DNA from: Pseudanabaena sp. PCC 7367
Lineage (GTDB): Bacteria > Cyanobacteriota > Cyanobacteriia > Pseudanabaenales > Pseudanabaenaceae
Reading direction: 5' to 3'
NCBI RefSeq assembly: GCF_000317065.1
Contig: NC_019701.1
Span: 372,001 to 436,000 of the forward strand
DNA length: 64,000 bases
The notes beneath the pieces were generated by a model, which worked only from the letters and a program-made list of their open reading frames with translations, did not search any database and was not told where the DNA came from. Within the stretch, counting starts at the first letter, position 1. The number at the start of each line of letters is the position of its first letter. Of the stretch, positions 44,901 through 53,936 are shown one piece after another. Made by a program: the position numbers and the translations under genes.

Positions 44901-44983
44901 CTAATCATCGCAGCCCAGCGACTCTCTTGTGCTCACGCCGGTCTTGGAGTTAACCCCTTTGGCCTTAGTACATAAAAAATTAA
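44901..44983 (-). pseudogene. Cut-off C-terminal end of the lumenal pentapeptide gene
   Basis: After removing the IS and one copy of the 8-bp duplication, the reading frame of 45734-46207 continues here for 24 codons (with GVNSKTGVSTRESLGC) to a TAG at 44901-44903. TGV.TR.SLGC is the conserved ending of many lumenal pentapeptide proteins in cyanobacteria and plants (from memory). The fragment has no start codon of its own. Confidence 0.85.
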
Positions 44984-44990
44984 GGTAGTG

Positions 44991-45383
44991 CTAAACAAGT
45001 AAGGATGAATTGTAATAGTGAATAAAAAGCCAGAGTGCACCAATATGGTTAGCTAACTTTTTTGAGAAAGAAAGAGTTTTACGAACCAGCCTAGATGCTC
45101 TCTGTCTAAGTGTGCAATTGAATCGCTCAATTCTATTAGTTAAGCCTGAACCTTTGCCAACTGGTTGATGGCGCTTGCTCGGAATTACCTGAGCATAGGC
45201 ACGCCAAAAATCAGTGTAGCAAACCGCACATTGTCGATAAACTGGCGGTAAAGACTGCCATAATCCTTTAGCACCATCTTCATCTCTCGAACCGATATGC
45301 ATTCCTACTATCTCTCTGGTATCAACATCTATGGCTAACCAAATCCAAACTTTGGCTTGTTTCTTTTCTACAAATGACCACAT
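44991..45383 (-). CDS. insB: IS1 transposase, InsB part
   Basis: This is the catalytic half of the IS1 transposase. The DDE residues are visible: D in LQLDEMW (just upstream of the listed ATG, in the same frame), D in YTDFWRAY, and E in RIERFNCTLRQR. The frame is open back to the A7 run at 45412-45418, where a -1 shift from InsA would join them. The listed ATG is therefore not the likely start of the active enzyme. Confidence 0.92.
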   Translation of the reverse strand: MWSFVEKKQAKVWIWLAIDVDTREIVGMHIGSRDEDGAKGLWQSLPPVYRQCAVCYTDFWRAYAQVIPSKRHQPVGKGSGLTNRIERFNCTLRQRASRLVRKTLSFSKKLANHIGALWLFIHYYNSSLLV

Positions 45384-45400
45384 TTCATCAAGCTGGAGTG

Positions 45401-45712
45401 TTAAGCACCCCTTTTTTTGTCCTGAACCTGCACTTGTTGAGGCACCTGGACATATTTTTGATTAACATATTGCTGTAGCCATGTTTCTGATACATCTGCA
45501 ACTCTAGCAATTCCAGCCAGTGAAACTCGCTCTAGCAGAAGTTTGTCGATTAACGCTTTAGTCTCGCTAGAAATATATTTCTTCTCGCAATTGGCCACAA
45601 ACTGCCGATCGCAATGCTTGCACTTGTAGTTCTGTTTGCCATTATGGATTCTGCCATTTTTGACTATTTTAGATGAATTGCATTTTGGACAAGTTAGCTC
45701 TGATGTATCCAT
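45401..45712 (-). CDS. insA: IS1 InsA, DNA-binding regulatory part
   Basis: 103 aa with a zinc-ribbon (CPKC ... CKHC, residues 9-33) and a helix-turn-helix (SLAGIARVADVSETWLQQYV). It binds the inverted repeats and, alone, represses transposition. It ends a few codons after the A7 run AAAAAAAGGGG (45408-45418), the site of programmed -1 frameshifting into InsB. Confidence 0.92.
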   Translation of the reverse strand: MDTSELTCPKCNSSKIVKNGRIHNGKQNYKCKHCDRQFVANCEKKYISSETKALIDKLLLERVSLAGIARVADVSETWLQQYVNQKYVQVPQQVQVQDKKRGA

Positions 45713-45733
45713 GAGAGGGAATTTTGGTATCTT

Positions 45734-46207
45734 CTATACTATTATCCTTACTTCTGGTGGACTACCAAAATTAACTTGCGCCCCATCCAGTAGCGCATCG
45801 GTAAAATCTGCGCCGGTAATATCTACATAATCAAAGGTGCTGCGTAATAAAACCGCATCGATCAGTAGGGCATCAGAGAGATCGGCCTTGGCAAAATCCA
45901 CCTGGTCGAGCAAACCAATGCTGAGATCTGCACCATGGAGATTGGCATGACGCAAAATTGAGGCACTAAATACTGCCCCGCGCAGATCCGCATTAGAAAA
46001 GTTAGCATCTTCCATATTTGCATTGGCAAACCCAGAGCCCCTCAGTTCCATGCCAGAAAAATTGCGCGATTGCAATGATCCATGACTAAAGGGTAGGGGC
46101 TTAGCGATCGCATTAACTGGCAAGATAATCAGGGTTGCGATCGCCAGAATCACGATCGTCCCCAAAATCAGGGTTGATTGAAATAATTTAAATAAGCGTT
46201 GCCGCAT
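45734..46207 (-). pseudogene. Lumenal pentapeptide-repeat protein, C-terminus replaced by IS1
   Basis: An N-terminal signal sequence (LILGTIVILAIATLIILPVNAIA) targets the protein to the thylakoid lumen or periplasm, followed by about 20 pentapeptide units. Native codons end at DGAQVNF (45767); the last ten residues (GSPPEVRIIV) come from the IS terminal repeat. The intact protein would be 171 aa. It may still be made as a truncated protein, but lacks the conserved C-terminal segment. It heads a unit that also contained the rhomboid gene. Confidence 0.88.
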
Positions 46208-53448: not shown

Positions 53449-53556
53449 TTAGACATTTAAATATTCAAAATATTATAGGTGGTGGATATTTATATTTATC
53501 TTGATCAAGGCTAAGCCAGGCCTAGAGTCAATTAACTAGAGTCAATTAAGCAAATT

Positions 53557-53669
53557 GGTAGTGCTGAACAAGTAAGGATTTGGGAGATAGTTGAATATCT
53601 ATAACCCAAACAAGCTAAGCTCCGAATTTTAAATCGATTGCTAATTATCCTTACTACTGCATGACTACC
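53557..53669. mobile_element. 113-bp MITE related to the IS1-family element
   Basis: The left end matches the left end of the IS at 44984 in 22 of 23 bases (GGTAGTGCTGAACAAGTAAG...), and the right end is related to the IS right end (19 of 23). The two ends match each other at 18 of 23. The 8-bp sequence AGCAAATT is duplicated directly outside (53549-53556 and 53670-53677). It has no ORF. It touches the stop codon of the 86 aa gene without changing it. Confidence 0.92.
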
Positions 53670-53675
53670 AGCAAA

Positions 53676-53936
53676 TTAATTGTGCTTGGAATGGGTGGCC
53701 AGGCGAGAGCGATCGCGGTGTACCTCATGCACCGAAATGCGTTTGAGTTCAAGCTTAGCCTCCAACTCATCAATGTAATCAACCCCTTCACCCGCCTGCT
53801 CACGCTGATCTAAATCCTTGAGCAAAGCTAGAATTTGCTGATCTAGCCCCGGCTTACCACTAAAGAGATGGCGCAGGGTCTCATCATGGTCATCATCAAC
53901 ATAGATTGGAATGTAGTAAATATACGGAGTATCCAT
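53676..53936 (-). CDS. Hypothetical protein, 86 aa
   Basis: Acidic, soluble-looking: YIYYIPIYVDDDHDETLRHL then LDQQILALLKDLDQREQAGE. The regular composition supports a real gene, but I know no family. The MITE sits immediately after its stop codon, leaving the coding sequence intact. Confidence 0.6.
   Translation of the reverse strand: MDTPYIYYIPIYVDDDHDETLRHLFSGKPGLDQQILALLKDLDQREQAGEGVDYIDELEAKLELKRISVHEVHRDRSRLATHSKHN

Follow-up and report, generated by a model that had tools for sequence, protein, structure and literature searches.

A recently mobile 113-bp MITE with IS1-type ends in Pseudanabaena sp. PCC 7367 and its probable mobilisation by resident IS1-family elements

The 113-bp element located at positions 53557-53669 of the window (the whole 64,000-nucleotide stretch of Pseudanabaena sp. 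PCC 7367 DNA analysed here) is very probably a recently mobile IS1-ended MITE, for which we infer mobilisation in trans by the transposase of IS1 copies resident in the same genome. This reading builds on the ends, copy number and duplications of the element, on identical copies at different sites and on intact resident IS1 genes, all of which were observed directly. The element falls below the ~500 bp size limit of MITEs and lacks a transposase gene, has terminal inverted repeats (TIRs) in common with resident IS1 isoforms, and occurs in multiple copies with target site duplications (TSDs). Its parts, together with those of the IS1-family element of the same window, are as follows.

53549..53556, no strand: target site duplication, left copy, 8 bp, AGCAAATT (sequence and TSD test)
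53557-53669: MITE, 113 bp, GGTAGTGCTGAACAAGTAAGGAT...ATCCTTACTACTGCATGACTACC, with an exact AGCAAATT on each side (sequence read directly)
53557..53579, + strand: left TIR of the MITE, GGTAGTGCTGAACAAGTAAGGAT; mismatches 1/23 with the IS-A left end and 2/23 with that of IS-B
53580..53643, + strand: MITE interior, non-coding, without IS similarity above shuffles; two short stem-loops are possible (TTTGGG..CCCAAA and GC..CGA..TCG..GC)
53644..53669, + strand: right TIR of the MITE, ATTATCCTTACTACTGCATGACTACC; mismatches 1/26 with the IS-B right end and 4/26 with that of IS-A
53670..53677, no strand: target site duplication, right copy, AGCAAATT (sequence)
44984..45766, - strand: IS1-family element, isoform IS-A, 783 bp, TSD AAAATTAA at 44976-44983 / 45767-45774; candidate transposase source
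45401..45712, - strand: InsA-like ORF, 103 aa (PF03811, E 8e-8; NF050000; N-terminal part of NF033558)
44991..45383, - strand: InsB-like ORF, 130 aa, IS1 transposase catalytic domain (PF03400, E 5e-18; NF033558, 106 bits against a cut-off of 100)

A sequence-only reading had placed a 113-bp element here within an exact 8-bp duplication, with a left end differing from that of the window IS at one of 23 bases and a right end differing at four. The duplication (AGCAAATT on both flanks) and both counts were confirmed, the right end at 4/26. The interior, described in the same reading as unrelated and non-coding, indeed resembles neither IS-A nor IS-B significantly, whichever orientation is compared (20-87% of 500 shuffles scored equally high or higher), and no ORF of at least 60 aa overlaps the element. 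The window copy lies between speA, encoding arginine decarboxylase, and a convergent 86-aa ORF.

The expectation that further copies with 8-bp duplications exist was borne out by a search of the whole window genome (G000, 4.89 Mb in two contigs), which returned 42 matches, made up of 30 near-full copies and fragments, with all 30 on the large contig. In the aligned set, 23 copies are exactly 113 bp long. Once the bounds had been adjusted for end variants, 17 of the 30 copies proved to have a perfect 8-bp direct repeat exactly at their ends, compared with a perfect 8-mer match in 1/2550 (~0.0004) shifted-flank controls and in 0/870 comparisons between the flanks of different copies. Six further copies carry a near-perfect or altered duplication (7/8 in L028, 6/8 in L020 and L029, a 7-bp repeat in L014, an 8-bp repeat offset by one base in L012 and a 15-bp repeat in L015), and the seven copies with no recognisable duplication are attributed to decay or rearrangement. 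A+T content reaches 82% in the duplications, compared with 62% over the nearest 60 bp and 55% over the 1-kb flanks. None of the 30 copies is situated in a large ORF, and no large gene is clearly interrupted; either counter-selection of insertions into genes or a preference for AT-rich targets would be consistent with this placement. The direct repeat flanking L015 (G000:C2:1308717) is ATTATTTCTAATCCT, standing in place of an 8-bp one. Additionally, the smaller contig (C1, ~0.33 Mb, perhaps a plasmid) holds no copy; about two would be expected from 30 copies.

Identical MITE sequences occur at different sites in three sets (L001/L002, L004/L007/L008 and L011/L012), and six of the seven members possess their own exact 8-bp duplication, the exception being L012 with its offset repeat. 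Such sets indicate recent movement, since copies of one sequence are found at separate sites and with differing duplications. The ends vary less among the copies than the interior does, with a mean site diversity of 0.025 at the left end, 0.037 at the right end and 0.076 in the interior, and two main sequence subfamilies can be distinguished. Furthermore, the older copies L027-L030 and the fragments document an earlier presence of the family. One decayed copy (L040:1101-1500, G000:C2:3516485-3516715) is split by ~110 bp bearing an inverted repeat of its own (ATGTGCAACTA...TAGTTGCACAT); these ~110 bp may represent another type of small mobile element.

The same genome contains 13 full-length IS1-family elements of 783 bp, with InsA and InsB, belonging to two isoforms that are 84% identical: IS-A, with two identical copies, one of them in the window, and IS-B, with 11 copies that are at least 99% identical among the equal-length copies compared. 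Several of the 13 elements do not differ from one another at all. The resident elements combine an InsA zinc-ribbon ORF with an InsB DDE transposase ORF, and the coordinates place InsB in the -1 register relative to InsA, behind an A-run, which is the arrangement of IS1. They also show the ~23-bp imperfect inverted repeats and 8-9-bp duplications of the family, the duplication being a perfect 8 bp in 8/13 full copies. A pentapeptide-repeat-like ORF on the minus strand (45734-46207) has the window IS-A copy at its 3' end, and its C-terminus is altered by this IS.

The MITE ends match those of the resident isoforms at 22/23 positions on the left (IS-A) and 25/26 on the right (IS-B), with the correct left/right polarity, and none of the 13 full copies has both ends identical to those of the MITE. 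The kinship to IS1 proposed in the sequence-only reading is therefore upheld, the ends matching resident IS1 elements that make 8-bp duplications, and neither of the outcomes that the reading had named as refuting it was observed. Its choice of the window element as the mobilising IS needs qualifying: IS-A is one of two resident isoforms and is probably not the best candidate parent, because the MITE right end is nearer to that of IS-B. Judging from the end sequences, the MITE probably derives from an ancestor or a recombinant of IS-A and IS-B. Either isoform may drive it at present, the abundant IS-B being the more likely.

Under the proposed mechanism, the ends of an ancestral IS1 would have been captured around unrelated DNA, giving a passenger that consists of hardly more than the two IS1 ends, left and right, with a foreign interior of 60-odd bp between them. 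InsAB' would be made from the resident 783-bp copies via putative -1 frameshifting, and the transposase would bind both MITE ends and cut at the GGTAGT/ACTACC tips. Insertion at AT-rich targets with an 8-bp stagger would then generate the 8-bp duplication, and repeated rounds would have yielded the at least 30 copies and two main subfamilies.

Natural variants of the right end were also found. Its sequence, ACTACTGCATGACTACC, contains an 11-bp repeat of ACTAC, with an internal GTAGT copy 11 bp in. L010 and L015 have one additional 11-bp unit, which slippage can explain. In L025 the outer 11 bp are missing: this copy ends in ACTACT, and a perfect 8-bp duplication directly adjoins the shortened end. 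A transposase cut at the inner pseudo-end explains L025 better than slippage, from which ACTACC would be expected, although a later point mutation is a possible source of this end.

Attribution to IS1 transposase was weighed against other origins of the family. Mobilisation by a transposase from outside the IS1 family that likewise gives 8-bp duplications (IS1595 or an unrelated IS), with the IS1-like ends being incidental, is highly improbable: although duplications of this length also arise from ISL3-family elements and a Microcystis MITE (PMC11448079), the ends match the resident isoforms at 22/23 and 25/26 positions in the correct polarity, and the GGTAGTcctaaacAAGTAAGGAT end is common to IS1 elements of other genera. 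That the MITE is an ordinary internally deleted IS1 (a type I MITE), its interior being diverged sequence of an extinct isoform, deserves somewhat more weight and is nevertheless unlikely. Next to the left end, a short interior segment can be aligned to IS-A with gaps, but interior similarity to IS-A or IS-B is no higher than that of shuffled sequence while the ends are almost perfect, and no full-length IS1 with subterminal DNA matching the MITE interior was found in the genomes searched.

The location of all copies outside large ORFs would also suit an intergenic repeat that the host has domesticated and keeps for a regulatory or terminator-like function, with mobility only in the past. Moreover, the whole element folds better than shuffles do (DNA z -2.95), into a cloverleaf-like hairpin. 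However, the fold is mostly due to the inverted repeats, and the interior base pairs, disrupted in many copies, have no excess of covariation. The MITE has no Rfam match, so that neither a known RNA family nor covariation marks it as a structured non-coding RNA, and a check of the window copy for promoter or terminator patterns was negative. Since identical copies with fresh duplications also indicate recent mobility, we regard domestication as very improbable, and the preferred reading is an IS1-ended MITE moved in trans.

Searches of 57 relatives, of GTDB genome contigs (with one exact degenerate pattern), and of plasmids and phages did not recover the MITE; beyond G000, they gave only a 26-bp end match, in G055. 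Viral contigs scanned for the InsB protein contained no relatives. When 390 genomes of the class were searched with an end-pair pattern, which would miss families with other end sequences, 17 matches were obtained in the window genome and only one other genome, G004, was hit. A short end-pair pattern also gave single matches in 13 other cyanobacteria. Those in 12 of them were rejected as chance, being without GGTAGT tips and about as frequent as with a reversed control pattern; the exception is G004.

G004, from another genus of the same family, contains 13 matches (L159-L171) with IS1-type ends (GGTAGTGGTATAcAAGTAAGGAT) and lengths of up to 111-112 bp. Duplications of 8 bp flank L160, L162 and L163, and L161 has 7/8. 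This independent family resembles the window MITE in its length of 111-112 bp, its IS1-type ends and its 8-bp duplications, but differs in its G+C-rich palindromic interior and older copies (74-86% identity). The sole full-length IS1 found in G004 has ends related to, but different from, those of its MITEs, and for this reason the partner of the G004 family may have been lost. An InsB match was present in 32/38 genomes of the family, so IS1 is common there, and IS1-ended MITEs were seen only in G000 and G004. It is possible, though doubtful, that ~112-bp MITE families, each with an interior of its own, have arisen repeatedly from IS1-family transposases in Pseudanabaenales, as in G000 and G004, and that the internal GTAGT permits an alternative right end. 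If so, IS1 end recognition could be tested with natural variants.

MITEs are common in bacteria, and the element type is already known, but few descriptions seem to exist of MITEs associated with IS1-family elements. The sequence-only reading had likewise called IS1-type MITEs rare in the literature, and we found no paper on an IS1-paired MITE among the open-access papers searched, an incomplete set. The window MITE shares its ends, 8-bp duplications and AT-rich targets with the IS1 family (InsA/InsB'), full-length members of which reside in the same genome, and differs from it in lacking transposase genes and in its unrelated interior. MITEAba12 of Acinetobacter, a 113-bp, non-coding, multicopy element with AT-rich targets, is paired with ISAba12 and makes 9-bp duplications (PMC6382973). 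Both elements are multicopy and non-coding, have TIRs in common with a resident IS, and show duplications and AT-rich targets, but the partner of MITEAba12 is not of the IS1 family, and the equal length of 113 bp is no evidence of homology. A 187-nt MITE of Microcystis aeruginosa PCC 7806, with ~31-33 mostly intergenic copies and 8-nt duplications, has an ISL3-family partner and ends GGCTCTTCG (PMC11448079); it is likewise cyanobacterial, with ~30 copies, 8-bp duplications and a mostly intergenic location, but has a different partner and other ends. With ~30 copies of recognisable relative age, two likely driver isoforms, natural end variants and an independent family in a second genus, the present set offers good natural data on the end requirements of IS1 transposase, and the window MITE is a possible minimal substrate for IS1 transposition.

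Traces of rearrangement were observed around the IS-B copies. L052 and L044 (G000:C2:1688917-1705981) form an inverted pair ~16 kb apart whose flanking 8-mers are swapped (GATTCATA and TATTTATT, the latter exchange allowing for one inserted base at the L052 tip), a signature of inversion through recombination of these two copies. In L049 and L054 (G000:C2:3758193 and 4370747), duplications of their own are absent and one flank of each is the same 8-mer, TAACTATA, suggesting another IS-mediated rearrangement.
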